A DNA stretch of 64,000 nt, from positions 62,001-126,000 of IMG/VR virus record IMGVR_UViG_3300027759_000045. One strand, given 5' to 3'. This DNA is from a virus. Within the stretch, counting starts at the first letter, position 1; every line of letters starts with the position of its first letter. Both the position numbers and the translations under genes were made by a program. Below are positions 5,698 through 51,244 of this stretch, one piece after another. The notes under the pieces are model-generated. The model was not told the DNA's origin, did no database searches, and saw only the letters and a list, made by a program, of their open reading frames with translations.

Positions 5698-5780
5698 GAC
5701 CAGTACTTGTTACTGACTCAAGTGTGAGGCGGCTGCTGCCTTGGACGGCCCGATTCGCTACCGGGAATCCTAAAGTGAGC

Positions 5781-5786
5781 TATAAT
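5781..5786 (+). promoter_or_regulatory. Probable -10 box before the radical SAM gene
   Basis: TATAAT lies 6 nt upstream of ATG 5793. No good -35 box is seen 17 bp upstream. The 95-bp gap also holds a CCCG/CGGG hairpin (around 5750-5765). A transcript from here would be almost leaderless. Confidence 0.4.
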
Positions 5787-5792
5787 ACTACT

Positions 5793-6860
5793 ATGATCAC
5801 AATCAATAATGTTAAAGAGATACACCTAGAACTCACAACACTTTGCAACGCACGATGCCCGTTGTGTGTGAGGAATGCCAATGGATACCCACACAATTTT
5901 GGATATCCTGAAACATCTTTATCGTTGGAACAAGTTAAACAGATATTTTCTGTTGATTTTATTCGTCAATTACGGCTCATTGACTTTTGCGGCAACTTTG
6001 GTGACTTTGTGATGGCACCAGACGCTGTGGAAATTGTCGAGTGGTTCCGCAGTGTTAATCCTTCCACCAGAATCACAATCAATACCAATGGCAGTGCCAG
6101 AGATCGAGAATTCTGGACACGCATTGGTCAGTGCAATGTGGAAGTGATATTTGATTTAGACGGACTTGAAGATACTCATGCCATGTATAGAGTAGATACC
6201 AACTGGCAAAACATCATTCGTAATGCACAGACTGTGATAGCCACAGGCAGCCGTGCTATATGGAAGATGATCAAATTTCAGCACAACCTGCATCAGATCG
6301 AAGCATGTCGTGAACTGGCTCTAGACCTGGGGTTTTATAGATTTGATCTCACTGATCACGGCAGAGACTACGGACCTGCGTTTGATCGACAAGGAAATCT
6401 AACTCGTATGTTGGGTATCGTTGACGACCGTAACCAACCTCGCACCATTGATCAAATTGTACAATGGCAACACCATACAACTCCACGGCTGCCACCAGAT
6501 GAAAAAGAAACACTGGATTGTTACAGCAACCGCAGTGAAACTATTTTTATTGCTGCCAATGGAGAAGTGTATCCTTGCTGTTATCTTGGTGCATTCCCCC
6601 GAACATTTAAAGACGGACCTTGGTACGATCTGGTGCATACACAACTAAAAACCATTGTGGACCATATCAACAACAATGCACTTGAAATAGGGATTGAAGC
6701 CGCAACAGAATGGTTTAATCAAATTGAAGAACGTTGGAAAATAGAAAAATACAAGGATGGCAGATTAATATTGTGTGATTCTCATTGTGGTAGAAAGTAT
6801 CAACACTGGGAAAGACAAGTACTAAACGACAAGAAAGTAGCAAATGGAACAATGGGTTAA
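5793..6860 (+). CDS. Radical SAM protein with SPASM-like C-terminus
   Basis: A 355-residue protein. The N-terminal CNARCPLC (C-x3-C-x2-C, residues about 19-26) is the radical SAM [4Fe-4S] motif. Cysteines in the C-terminal third (YPCCYLG, CDSHCG) fit a SPASM-type auxiliary cluster region. SPASM enzymes commonly modify peptides or act as oxidases. The substrate is unknown here. ATG 5793 is chosen over a GTG 23 codons upstream because it follows the -10 box and begins at the conserved strand before the Cys motif. It overlaps the following hydroxylase gene by 17 nt. Confidence 0.8.
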   Translation: MITINNVKEIHLELTTLCNARCPLCVRNANGYPHNFGYPETSLSLEQVKQIFSVDFIRQLRLIDFCGNFGDFVMAPDAVEIVEWFRSVNPSTRITINTNGSARDREFWTRIGQCNVEVIFDLDGLEDTHAMYRVDTNWQNIIRNAQTVIATGSRAIWKMIKFQHNLHQIEACRELALDLGFYRFDLTDHGRDYGPAFDRQGNLTRMLGIVDDRNQPRTIDQIVQWQHHTTPRLPPDEKETLDCYSNRSETIFIAANGEVYPCCYLGAFPRTFKDGPWYDLVHTQLKTIVDHINNNALEIGIEAATEWFNQIEERWKIEKYKDGRLILCDSHCGRKYQHWERQVLNDKKVANGTMG

Positions 6861-42775: not shown

Positions 42776-43318
42776 ATGAAAGATTTAATATTAATCGCAT
42801 TGAAAGAAGAAGCACCCAACATAGCTTTCAGTATGAAAGTTTTTTTCACTGGGGTAGGAAAAGTAAATGCCGCAATGACTACAGCTGAAATGATTGCTAA
42901 GTACCGCCCCGATCGTATTATCAACTTTGGTACAGCTGGTGGAGTCACTGTTAAGTCAGGATTTCACCAAGTGACCAAGTTTATACAACGTGACATGATG
43001 TGCTGTGAGTTGGGTAGTCTGCCAGGTCAAACACCATTCGAAGATGGTGTTGTTTTAGATTTTGGCAAGGGGTTGACCTGCAGTACAGGTGATAACTTTG
43101 TTACTGATAGTAATCTATTGATACCAGCCGACGTAGTGGATATGGAAGCATACGCTATAGCAAAGGCATGTAAAAAACATAACGTAGAATTTTTATGTTA
43201 CAAGTTTGTTAGTGATGGTGCTAATGAAGATTCATTAAATGATTGGCGCACAACTGTTAGTCAAGGGCAACTTCACTATCTAAATAAACTTAAAGAATTA
43301 AATGTATCTCTGGTGTAA
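42776..43318 (+). CDS. MTA/SAH nucleosidase-like (PNP/UDP phosphorylase family)
   Basis: A 180-residue protein. ALKEEAP, FFTGVGKVNAAM, NFGTAGG and DMEAYAIAKAC with the later VSDGAN match the MtnN/Pfs type of nucleoside hydrolase. These enzymes cleave methylthioadenosine, S-adenosylhomocysteine and 5'-deoxyadenosine, the by-products of SAM enzymes. It is shorter than MtnN (about 230). The last 15 nt of the gene form the start of tRNA-Trp. It complements metK in a SAM cycle. Confidence 0.82.
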   Translation: MKDLILIALKEEAPNIAFSMKVFFTGVGKVNAAMTTAEMIAKYRPDRIINFGTAGGVTVKSGFHQVTKFIQRDMMCCELGSLPGQTPFEDGVVLDFGKGLTCSTGDNFVTDSNLLIPADVVDMEAYAIAKACKKHNVEFLCYKFVSDGANEDSLNDWRTTVSQGQLHYLNKLKELNVSLV

Positions 43319-47718: not shown

Positions 47719-48219
47719 ATGGAAAAAATCAATCTCGCCAAGGTAAAAAAGTTCATTGAGGCGCAGACACCCGAAACTCGAATTTATCTCGGCTGTGACT
47801 CTGAGCGCCTTAGAGTAAACGGGGTCTGGCATGCCGACTATGTGTTGGCTGTTGTGGTTCACATCAACGGCAACAACGGTTGCAAACTATTTGGCGAAGT
47901 ACAGCGTGAGCGAGACTTTGATCAAAAAACTTCTCGTCCCAGTATGCGATTGATGAATGAAGTTTACAAAGTATCCGAACTGTACCTAAAGCTGGGCGAA
48001 GTGCTAGAAGGCCGTCATGTTGAAGTGCATTTGGATATTAACCCAGATGATCAGTACGGTTCTAGCTGTGTGATATCACAGGCAGTGGGCTATATCAAAG
48101 GCACTTGCAATGTGACACCATCAGTTAAACCCAATGCGTTTGCTGCCAGCTATGCTGCCGATCGTTTTAAAGGATTATCAACTGCATGTCATCGTGCCAG
48201 AATCAACGAAAGATTCTAA
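47719..48219 (+). CDS. DUF458 (RNase H-like, YkuK-type) protein
   Basis: A 166-residue protein. YLGCDSERLR at the N-terminus, EVHLDINPDDQYGSSCV and GYIKGTCNVTPSVKPNAFAA match DUF458, a family with an RNase H-like fold and conserved acidic residues. A nuclease role is likely from fold but not demonstrated. Located between tRNA-Leu and tRNA-Ser, it might process RNA from the array (inference). Confidence 0.75.
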   Translation: MEKINLAKVKKFIEAQTPETRIYLGCDSERLRVNGVWHADYVLAVVVHINGNNGCKLFGEVQRERDFDQKTSRPSMRLMNEVYKVSELYLKLGEVLEGRHVEVHLDINPDDQYGSSCVISQAVGYIKGTCNVTPSVKPNAFAASYAADRFKGLSTACHRARINERF

Positions 48220-48226
48220 AAAGTTG

Positions 48227-48254
48227 TTGACTTTTAATTTTTTTCTGTTATAAT
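48227..48254 (+). promoter_or_regulatory. Promoter before tRNA-Ser(ACT)
   Basis: TTGACT (48227-48232), 16-bp T-rich spacer, TATAAT (48249-48254), ending 10 nt before the tRNA. Confidence 0.7.
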
Positions 48255-48264
48255 TACAACTGTA

Positions 48265-48354
48265 GGAAGCGTGTCCGAGTGGCCGATGGAACTGGTCTAC
48301 TAAACCAGCATACGAGTAATCGTATCGTGAGTTCGAATCTCACCGCTTCCGCCA
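48265..48354 (+). tRNA. tRNA-Ser(ACT), unusual anticodon
   Basis: Class II tRNA, acceptor GGAAGCG / CGCTTCC, anticodon stem CTGGT / ACCAG with loop CTACTAA (ACT), variable arm ATACGA-GTAA-TCGTAT, encoded CCA. A34 is normally found only in tRNA-Arg(ACG) of bacteria. Confidence 0.88.
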
Positions 48355-48360
48355 AGTTAC

Positions 48361-48435
48361 CGCGGGGTACGTCAGTGGTAGACCGCCAGGCTCATAACCT
48401 GGAAGCCGGAGGTTCGAGTCCTTCCCCCGCAACCA
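48361..48435 (+). tRNA. Initiator tRNA-fMet(CAT)
   Basis: 5' CGCGGGG faces 3' CCCCGCA, giving the C1-A72 mismatch diagnostic of bacterial initiators; anticodon stem-loop CCAGGCTCATAACCTGG (CAT); 3' end AACCA as in E. coli fMet. Confidence 0.92.
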
Positions 48436-48453
48436 TTTGTTTTAGGAAGCATT

Positions 48454-48840
48454 ATGAACTCTAATCCTGAGCGCAAGAACAATTTAGAATACGACTTGCG
48501 GAATACCAAGTGGATCTGCGACAAGGCCAAGGCCAGCGAATTTTACGCACAAAATCTGTATGCTGCCATGTGCAATCAAGACTGGCAAAAAAATGAAGTT
48601 TGGCCGTTGCTCAAAAGCGAAACATACAGTTGCAGTTGGCGCTATGCCGGTGGCATTGTGGCCGACATGGTCGAAAAGGGTGACTATATCGATTGGTACT
48701 GCTCAGGTATTCGTGGAGAACAAGGCATCGATTACGAGCCTCCTCTAACTTTTGTGCCCGAAGGTACAGTCACAGAAGAAATACGCGAAGACTTTTTTAA
48801 ATTAGGATGGATTCCTATTGATCAAGTAGACGATGAATAA
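48454..48840 (+). CDS. Conserved-type protein, unknown (128 aa)
   Basis: A 128-residue acidic protein with several Trp/Cys (TKWICDKAKASEFYAQNLYA, SCSWRYAGGIVADMVEKGDY, GWIPIDQVDDE). No enzyme motif. It starts 18 nt after the initiator tRNA with a TAGGAAG ribosome site and ends in AATAAATA, which may form the tmRNA promoter. Confidence 0.65.
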   Translation: MNSNPERKNNLEYDLRNTKWICDKAKASEFYAQNLYAAMCNQDWQKNEVWPLLKSETYSCSWRYAGGIVADMVEKGDYIDWYCSGIRGEQGIDYEPPLTFVPEGTVTEEIREDFFKLGWIPIDQVDDE

Positions 48841-48843
48841 ATA
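48836..48843 (+). promoter_or_regulatory. TAAATA-type box before tmRNA
   Basis: AATAAATA overlaps the stop codon of the preceding gene and lies just before the predicted tmRNA precursor. A late-type start would be near 48849. Confidence 0.35.
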
Positions 48844-48857
48844 AGTGTTATTGCTGT

Positions 48858-49227
48858 ATGAAGCAAAGAGAAAAGTGTTCTGGACGGGGGTGCGAATCCC
48901 CCCAGGTCCACCAAAAAGACTTTTACCCTAGACCGCAAGAGCCAACTACATGTTGCGGAAAAGGATGTGAAGGATGTGTCTGGATTAGCTATTTTGAAGC
49001 ACTAGCTAGATGGGAGAGTCTTTTTGGAGGGCCTGACCTAGATTCGACAGGGCAACAAGTAAATTAGTGGACAGCTCGGGAATGTGAAACCCGTAGGGTT
49101 GGGGAGACTCGGCCGAAGAAGCAAAAAACGTAAATGCAAACGTAAACAAAACCGTAACTGTTTCAGGCAAGAATATCAAGTTCTCTGCTCGTTCAGCCAA
49201 GGAAGCATTGGCAGTCTAAACACTGCC
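48858..49227 (+). ncRNA. ssrA: Circularly permuted (two-piece) tmRNA
   Basis: The acceptor piece comes first: T-arm GGGGGTGCGAATCCCCC (about 48886-48902), acceptor strand CAGGTCC (48903-48909), A, CCA (48911-48913). The 5' piece follows: GGGCCTG (49029-49035) pairs with that acceptor strand, then the tmRNA hallmark GATTCGACAGG (49051-49061). The linker ends continue the stem (CCAAAAAGACT 48911-48921 with AGTCTTTTTGG 49017-49027). The tag frame likely resumes at GCA 49136, reads ANVNKTV... to ...AKEALAV and stops at 49217, inside the hairpin GGCAGT-CTAAAC-ACTGCC. tmRNA rescues stalled ribosomes and tags peptides. Confidence 0.9.
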
Positions 49228-49237
49228 TAGGGTTTTT

Positions 49238-49277
49238 GGTAATTTATCCTCGTAACAGAATTAAATTACCTTTTTAT
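49238..49277 (+). terminator. Rho-independent terminator after tmRNA
   Basis: Perfect 9-bp stem GGTAATTTA / TAAATTACC (49238-49246, 49262-49270) with a 15-nt loop and TTTTTATT tail. Confidence 0.8.
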
Positions 49278-49299
49278 TCAATAACAAAAATCCACCGGC

Positions 49300-50589
49300 A
49301 TGAACATTCCCTTAGACAATTTGTACCACTGGGTGCAATCGATCATACCTGTTCCTGCAGTAATCTATAGATTTTATCCACACGGTAGTAAAAATATTGT
49401 TGATCTTACTTCACTGAGTCCCCGACCCGATGAGGAACATTATGTTGATATTCCAGTTGTTGTCCACGACCAGGAACCATTGGATTATAATCTGTACACA
49501 AATATTGATCTGGCATCATTGCAGCAATTGTGGCAAACCATGGCGTTAAGCAATCCTGTTGCCACAGAAATAAGATGCCAGGCCTTAGTTGATAAAAATT
49601 TATTGGCAATACCATTAGCAGGTGGATCGCTTCATGACCAGGCAATTTTACTGCATTCTGAAAAAAATTCTGTTGACTTAGAACAGTATTCTCAAAATAA
49701 TTTTTTGCCGGTTTACCATTGGTGTCATGCAATTATTGCTCGTGACTGGTATAGATTTGCTGAAATAGATGCTCGGCTTGTTCCACAATCTCATATACAA
49801 GAAAAATTCCTTATATATAATCGCGCATGGGGCAATACCAGAGAATACAGATTAAAGTTCATGGAGTTATTGATTAAACATGGATTACATGAATCAAGTA
49901 AAACCAGTATATCAGCCAGAGCCGAAGGCAATCAAGGACATCATTATCATGATCATAAATTTAAAAATGTCAATTTTGCGCTTGAAGACAGCACTGTATT
50001 AGATCTGCTCGAAGATAATCAATTCAACAGCAACGAAAGCGCACAGTACAATCATGATGATTTCAATTCAACTGCAATAAGTGTAGTTTTAGAAACCATG
50101 TTTGACGACTCAAGAATTCACTTGACAGAAAAGACACTGAGACCAATTGCCTGCGGTCATCCATTTGTATTGGCAGCGGGGCCACGCAGTTTAGAGTATC
50201 TTAGAAGTTACGGATTTCGAACATTTGCTCCATGGATTGACGAAAGTTATGATCATGAACCTGACAGTTTGCGCAGACTTGAAAAAATTATCAACAGCAT
50301 GAATAAAATTAATTTGCTTGATGCCGAGGAGTTTGATCAATTTCTAATAGAAATCAAACACATAGCCGATTTTAACAAAAAACATTTTTTCAGCGATGCA
50401 TTTCAACAACAGGTGATTGAAGAATTAAAAACTAATTTAACACATGCAATTCAACACATTAAAAAACCACGTGGCATATTTCCAAGAGCATTGAAAAAAA
50501 AAATATTAAAAGCAGATCCCAGTTTCTTTGATACAAAATGTCATTATGACTATTATTGCGAAGTGATTCGGTTGCTGAGATCTCAATGA
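49300..50589 (+). CDS. Fucosyltransferase-like protein, family member 3
   Basis: A 429-residue protein. SVVLETMFDDSRIHLTEKTL, then RPIACGHPFVLAAGPRSLEY and LRSYGFRTF repeat the donor-site block of the genes at 37.4 and 39.0 kb, with the T/S-E-K motif intact. KFLIYNRAWGNTREYRLKF precedes it. The N-terminal third is variable. Likely a glycosyltransferase for a surface or virion glycan. It follows the tmRNA terminator. Confidence 0.7.
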   Translation: MNIPLDNLYHWVQSIIPVPAVIYRFYPHGSKNIVDLTSLSPRPDEEHYVDIPVVVHDQEPLDYNLYTNIDLASLQQLWQTMALSNPVATEIRCQALVDKNLLAIPLAGGSLHDQAILLHSEKNSVDLEQYSQNNFLPVYHWCHAIIARDWYRFAEIDARLVPQSHIQEKFLIYNRAWGNTREYRLKFMELLIKHGLHESSKTSISARAEGNQGHHYHDHKFKNVNFALEDSTVLDLLEDNQFNSNESAQYNHDDFNSTAISVVLETMFDDSRIHLTEKTLRPIACGHPFVLAAGPRSLEYLRSYGFRTFAPWIDESYDHEPDSLRRLEKIINSMNKINLLDAEEFDQFLIEIKHIADFNKKHFFSDAFQQQVIEELKTNLTHAIQHIKKPRGIFPRALKKKILKADPSFFDTKCHYDYYCEVIRLLRSQ

Positions 50590-50701
50590 GTACACCCCAC
50601 CTTTTTGGTGTGTTTCTTCATTGAAAAAGCCGGGGATCATGTACCGTGACTAAGTATTATTCTAGCCGATGAAAGTCGGCTTTAATTTAAAGGAAAATAA
50701 A

Positions 50702-51244
50702 ATGAAAAAAATCTTCGCAATTTTGGCTTTGGCCGTTTCTAGTTCTGCTTTCGCAGTATCATATGTTTCAGTTGACGTTGACAGCGTTTCTGGACTCAAG
50801 GGCGCTGGCGACAGTACAGCACAATACATTCGTGCTGGTAAAGAAATTGGCGGAATCCAATTTGGTTTGCAAGGCCGTACTGCTACATTGAACAACAACT
50901 CAGGTATGTTGAGTAGCGTAGAAGTCACAGCGGGAAAGAATTCCAAAGGCATTACACCATTCATTGGTGCAGGTCATGACAATGGAGTCAATGCAGGCAC
51001 ACCTTACAACTACGGGTTGGTTGGTGCAACATATGGTCTGCCAGCTGGCCCAGGTTACTTGTTAACAGGTGTCAAGACTCGTGTTGGTTCAACAGAAAAT
51101 GGCGCACGTACAAAGCAGACAGTTGGCTTTGCTACATACTCAATTCCAGTTACCAAGGGCGTTGCTGTTAACTTGAATGCTAGCCGTTCTGGTCAAGACA
51201 TCAAAGAAAAGGCGTTTGGCGTAGGTTTAGGTTTTAGTTTTTAA
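50702..51244 (+). CDS. Outer-membrane beta-barrel-like protein with signal peptide
   Basis: A 180-residue protein. The signal peptide MKKIFAILALAVSSSAFA is cleaved after Ala. The mature part alternates hydrophobic strands and Gly-rich turns and ends GVGLGFSF with a C-terminal Phe, the signal for the Bam machinery. It would insert in the host outer membrane. A role in blocking superinfection is plausible but not shown. ATG 50702 follows AAAGGAAA. An upstream in-frame ATG would ruin the signal peptide. A strong terminator follows. Confidence 0.78.
   Translation: MKKIFAILALAVSSSAFAVSYVSVDVDSVSGLKGAGDSTAQYIRAGKEIGGIQFGLQGRTATLNNNSGMLSSVEVTAGKNSKGITPFIGAGHDNGVNAGTPYNYGLVGATYGLPAGPGYLLTGVKTRVGSTENGARTKQTVGFATYSIPVTKGVAVNLNASRSGQDIKEKAFGVGLGFSF

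Follow-up and report, generated by a model that had tools for sequence, protein, structure and literature searches.

A circularly permuted tmRNA gene on a phage genome, its long tag ending in ALAV, and its apparently nearly phage-restricted lineage

Two-piece tmRNAs of phages have been documented in a survey that counted 53 of them among 133 unique phage tmRNAs (PMC9004378), and 79 phage sequences are held in the tmRNA database (PMC11915505). Given that survey and the Stenotrophomonas phages already annotated, the phage two-piece tmRNA is not new as a kind. The two-piece tmRNAs of the marine methylophage Melnitz and of pelagi- and cyanophages (PMC9004378) are phage-encoded and permuted like the copy described here. 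The Melnitz copy, unlike ours, clusters with the alphaproteobacterial tmRNAs and carries a glutamine riboswitch (PMC9004378); no Rfam riboswitch was found at our locus. The permuted tmRNA of betaproteobacteria (RF01850/RF04321) shares with our locus the gene order, the acceptor and T stems, P2 and a linker hairpin that extends the acceptor stem. Its 3′ segment is similar and its 10-residue tag is also present in most of the phage relatives. It differs in that the phage copies form a separate clade with a 5′ signature and a far longer linker, and in that our copy has a 27-residue tag ending in ALAV and reaches only 51.4 and 12.3 bits on RF01850, below the cut-off of 84. Clade and signature are shared by the Stenotrophomonas phages IME-SM1, Moby, Mendera, Marzo and Yut2/Yut3 and the Xanthomonas phages X1 and Rb1, whose tags are short (12–14 residues where read). 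What is new here is the nearly phage-restricted lineage, a recurring and seemingly conserved long tag, and ClpA and ClpP on the same genome.

The locus lies in a window of 64,000 nucleotides, positions 62001-126000 of the virus record IMGVR_UViG_3300027759_000045 (346,856 bp). Genes for portal, large terminase, tail sheath, family B DNA polymerase and ribonucleotide reductase on the record make the phage context firm. The tmRNA gene adjoins a large tRNA array; ARAGORN found 26 tRNA genes in the window, 21 of them upstream of the tmRNA. A gene of the phosphorylase superfamily (PNP_UDP_1, 42776-43318) sits within this array, and at least two radical-SAM-like proteins are encoded in the phage genome (window 5724-6860 and genome stretch L012:5129-6706).

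The segment 48852-49219 (+) is a circularly permuted phage-borne tmRNA gene with a long ALAV-ending tag. A failure of tmRNA models on the region had been named beforehand as refuting this reading; run as a test, it gave no refutation, for the Rfam model RF04321 (tmRNA_permuted) matched the region with 104.7 bits (E 2e-19, cut-off 47) over its full length (model positions 1-213), the sole such match across the genome. Independently of Rfam, a permuted tmRNA was called by ARAGORN, which read a tag of 27 residues in an open frame from resume codon GCA to stop TAA. The features are collected in Table 1. The permuted order of the original prediction was borne out, as the T arm, CAGGTCC and ACCA precede GGGCCTG, and its perfect acceptor stem was confirmed when the G3-U70 wobble is counted in. 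This alanine identity pair and the ACCA end are both present. The 11-bp helix into the linker, the length and end of the tag, and the downstream intrinsic terminator were likewise found as predicted.

Table 1. Features of the permuted tmRNA locus (window positions) and Clp genes of the same phage (record positions, marked).
Feature	Position	Strand	Remarks
Late-type box AATAAATA	48836..48843	+	overlaps stop codon of upstream ORF; probably not an own promoter
5′ signature of the phage tmRNA lineage, GCTGTATGAAGC	48853..48864	+	GCUG pairs with CAGC 49072-49075 (Rfam layout) or closes a local hairpin
P2 helix, 5′ strand TGTTCTG	48876..48882	+	pairs with 49048-49054
T stem-loop GGGGG TGCGAAT CCCCC, tRNA-like domain	48886..48902	+	
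3′ acceptor strand CAGGTCC (48903-48909) and ACCA (48910-48913), end of acceptor piece	48903..48913	+	7/7 pairs with 49029-49035, G3-U70 kept
Intervening segment (linker), 115 nt	48914..49028	+	expected to be removed in processing
Linker helix, CCAAAAAGACT with AGTCTTTTTGG	48911-48921 with 49017-49027	+	11 bp Watson-Crick
5′ acceptor strand GGGCCTG, start of coding piece	49029..49035	+	
P2 helix, 3′ strand CAGGGCA	49048..49054	+	pairs with 48876-48882
Tag reading frame ANVNKTVTVSGKNIKFSARSAKEALAV and stop	49136..49219	+	
Hairpin GGCAG...CTGCC around tag stop codon	49210..49227	+	
Intrinsic-terminator-like stem GGTAATTTA/TAAATTACC, 9 bp, and T5	49238..49275	+	loop contains CCTCGTAACAGAA, recurring in relatives
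ClpA-like unfoldase	record 48732-51020		TIGR02639 782 bits, under model cut-off of 993; among solved structures E. coli ClpA matches best
ClpP	record 339692-340267		213.6 bits, catalytic residues kept
Second ClpP-like gene, weaker and more divergent	record 335684-336214		102 bits

In the precursor the 3′ CCA is itself paired, as a part of the helix entering the linker, which reaches 14 bp when wobbles are included. A linker helix of such length arose in 0.015% of the trials with shuffled linkers. An unconstrained fold of 48851-49060 recovered the acceptor stem, T arm, P2 and linker helix together (z = −3.0).

A search pattern combining the T arm with the 5′ signature TGTATGAAGC matched at least 120 viral contigs, while among 84,980 species genomes of bacteria and archaea it matched two contigs, both Stenotrophomonas. 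The bacterial beta-type signature was found in four viral contigs only. ARAGORN called a permuted tmRNA in 118 of the 126 loci tested (116 phage, 2 Stenotrophomonas). In each of 104 unique phage relatives all seven acceptor-stem pairs are preserved, compensatory changes included; G3-U70 never varies, and P2 covaries. The linker helix, which is no requirement of the gene finder, is at least 9 bp long in 86% of these copies, in 74 different sequences, against 0.35% of shuffles. Such helices are frequent in bacterial beta copies as well, with short linkers; what marks the phages is therefore not the helix, which is general, but the long linker (median 86.5 nt in phages versus 30.5 nt in bacterial permuted tmRNAs, the beta copies for comparison having been gathered by family-level searches).

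In a tree built from only 150 columns, with members chosen by the shared signature, the phage and the two Stenotrophomonas copies formed one clade (UFBoot 100; phages alone 96), placed beside the betaproteobacterial copies and distant from the alphaproteobacterial ones. That the lineage is rare in bacterial genomes stands independently of this tree. Taken together, the comparisons point to a phage clade of permuted tmRNA, akin to the betaproteobacterial copies and nearly phage-restricted. A gap-free pattern scan that made no use of the signature gave, among the matches listed, 102 new loci, which ARAGORN assigned as 60 permuted, 17 standard and 25 unclassified. Permuted tmRNA is thus common in the viral collection, and its 5′ part is varied.

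Cultured phages of Stenotrophomonas and Xanthomonas carry the lineage; in some of them the gene is annotated as tmRNA or SsrA and in many it is without annotation. In Stenotrophomonas phage QDWS359 (L004:2493-3071) an annotated hypothetical protein on the opposite strand overlies the unannotated permuted tmRNA and is probably no real gene. The phage-type permuted tmRNA also occurs in Stenotrophomonas rhizophila DE0483 and Stenotrophomonas sp. VV52, besides their own standard tmRNA, with tags read by ARAGORN as ANADYYDQDEEVILRVA and AQPPRPQRRGGLFAQTQNFQPTRA, respectively; these copies were possibly captured from phage.

The most common tag in the relatives has 10 residues, e.g., ANDSQFALAA. The window tag follows another pattern, AN(V/A)N(K/T)TVTVSGKN(I/V/L)KFSAR(S/T)AKE(A/S)LAV, with some copies starting AK. 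Fourteen viral contigs have it, encoded by 8 distinct DNA sequences with a mean pN/pS of 0.34. As the sample comprises 8 related sequences of 27 codons, selection on the long tag is indicated rather than proven, and its amino-acid sequence appears to be conserved. Every match of the core pattern among 2.9 million viral contigs was the tag followed by a stop, and no other protein with the core was found there; no similar peptide was found in the solved structures of the PDB or in annotated phages. Borrowing of the tag from a protein of the phage was considered and rejected, since tblastn against its own genome returned the tag itself and chance-level matches only. The tag is without the usual AND..-F/Y start and ends in LAV, which makes its recognition by any Clp unfoldase uncertain.

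Long tags were met elsewhere. A 32-residue tag, AKANTQSGVKVTVGKGFRFGGSKSARTEAAFA, was read in the genome L089 and its core pattern is fitted by L233, both genomes having a ClpA-like gene. Several other phage tmRNAs have long tags closed by a canonical degron, e.g., ...NESRFALAA. Tags of 24–31 residues with a canonical-looking degron at the end are present in permuted phage tmRNAs of another 5′ type (GTTGTAATCCCTTCAAAG or GTTGTAATTCCTTCAAAG; L292, L301, L321, L356). The closest relatives of our copy in the tRNA-domain tree are mostly short-tagged. Given the 32-residue pair and the other long phage tags, long tags probably arose more than once.

Expression was approached from the upstream regions. 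The original prediction had placed a late-type box upstream of the gene, and AATAAATA is indeed there, yet such boxes are rarer than chance across the genome (19 for AATAAATA and 8 for TATAAATA, 27.6 being expected for each). With these counts and the overlap with the upstream stop codon the box carries no weight, and a late promoter was dismissed. Of 110 unique upstream regions of relatives, 45 matched a sigma-70 promoter at 9/12 or better (6.5% of shuffles) and 30 at 11/12 or better (0.05% of shuffles); the −10 element most often ends 12 nt upstream of the signature. From these matches, many of the relatives are probably transcribed early by the host polymerase. In the upstream region of our copy no sigma-70 match was found. 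Since its upstream neighbours are a tRNA and then a short ORF, it is probably read through from upstream.

SmpB was detected neither in the phage genome nor in 19 records of relatives; the phage tmRNA would thus depend on a host SmpB accepting the RNA. As to the fate of tagged products, ssrA-tagged proteins are degraded by E. coli ClpXP and ClpAP alike (PMC8512704 and references in it). The phage has close homologues of the bacterial ClpA and ClpP, with the IGF loop for ClpP docking kept in the ClpA-like protein along with the catalytic residues of ClpP, so that the unfoldase and the peptidase share one genome with the tmRNA. Compared with the bacterial ClpA-ClpP system with ssrA tagging, all parts but SmpB are on one phage genome, the tag is non-canonical and the coupling is a supposition. 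The second ClpP-like gene may encode a capsid maturation protease, and a DnaJ-like gene (L007:7901-8677) lies directly 5′ of the ClpA-like gene (L007:8732-11020), the two making up a small cluster of chaperone and unfoldase genes at record 47901-51020. Strong ClpP and ClpA occur together in five tmRNA phages. That ClpA would accompany the tmRNA in every phage was not borne out: it is present in 7 of 31 tmRNA-bearing records and absent from 24, many of the records being fragments. In the three records searched of X1, Rb1 and QDWS359, unlike in our phage, neither ClpA nor ClpP was matched, and X1 is a 200-kb phage. Because ClpA is widespread in jumbo phages and absent from many tmRNA records, the pairing of tmRNA with ClpAP is put forward here as a hypothesis.

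We think it probable that the permuted tmRNA gene is functional in this huge tailed phage, its RNA engaging in ribosome rescue with host SmpB and delivering tagged products to ClpAP. The precursor would be one long hairpin joining the acceptor stem to the intervening segment. By analogy with known permuted tmRNAs, host tRNA-processing enzymes would excise this segment, with pairing keeping the resulting acceptor and coding pieces together, and G3-U70 would allow charging by the host alanyl-tRNA synthetase. Host SmpB would bring the RNA to ribosomes stalled on broken mRNA in infection, where the 27-residue tag with its still ssrA-degron-like C-terminus would be appended. For these steps, i.e., cutting, charging, tagging and the rescue chemistry, we rely on homology. 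ClpAP, whether encoded by the phage itself or supplied by the host, might then degrade the tagged fragments. The gain would be that ribosomes are kept free and amino acids are recycled during the destruction of host mRNA.

Other roles were weighed against this one. The extension might act besides or instead of degradation, e.g., in partner binding, stabilising or localising; the conserved basic core TVTVSGKN(I/V/L)KFSAR(S/T)AKE, ALAV in place of ALAA and the unrelated look of other long phage tags speak for it. We nevertheless find it unlikely, as the C-terminus is still degron-like, the canonical ends of several long phage tags suggest that degradation is kept, and the searches of solved structures and annotated phages gave no similar peptide. 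The RNA could also be a decoy that occupies SmpB or ribosomes of the host and so blocks its trans-translation, a role that has been suggested for the TLD-only tmRNA of mycobacteriophage DS6A. A phage tmRNA consisting of the tRNA-like domain only does inhibit host tmRNA on expression (PMC4131195, PMC11915505), and the want of SmpB in the phage and its relatives would suit such a role. Such a decoy would need no tag, however, while here the tag frame is intact and apparently under purifying selection and most relatives keep canonical degrons; a decoy is accordingly rated as quite improbable. That host tmRNA fragments do get acquired by phages, and that our copy is without the sigma-70 promoter of its relatives, would fit a host-derived copy that is decaying or is carried as a passenger and does nothing today. 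Against this, helices and tag frame are all kept over deep phage divergence with compensatory changes, and the phage copies form their own clade, unscattered among the sampled bacterial copies, which makes a passenger very hard to believe.

The functional tmRNA reading has a bolder form, which is possible but doubtful: some huge phages may have a near-complete tag-and-destroy pathway of their own, with a phage-lineage two-piece tmRNA encoding a phage-specific degron, a phage ClpAP tuned to it and only SmpB borrowed from the host. If true, ribosome rescue and product disposal would proceed without dependence on host ClpX and SspB. Phage tmRNAs have mostly been mentioned in passing; here they come as one large, apparently nearly phage-only permuted lineage that includes cultured phages. 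In the two Stenotrophomonas genomes checked the ordinary tmRNA is one-piece, so that a phage two-piece RNA should be conspicuous in a host of this kind. With a conserved long tag and with ClpA and ClpP of the phage itself, it becomes testable whether phages supply both a degradation tag and a protease that recognises it.
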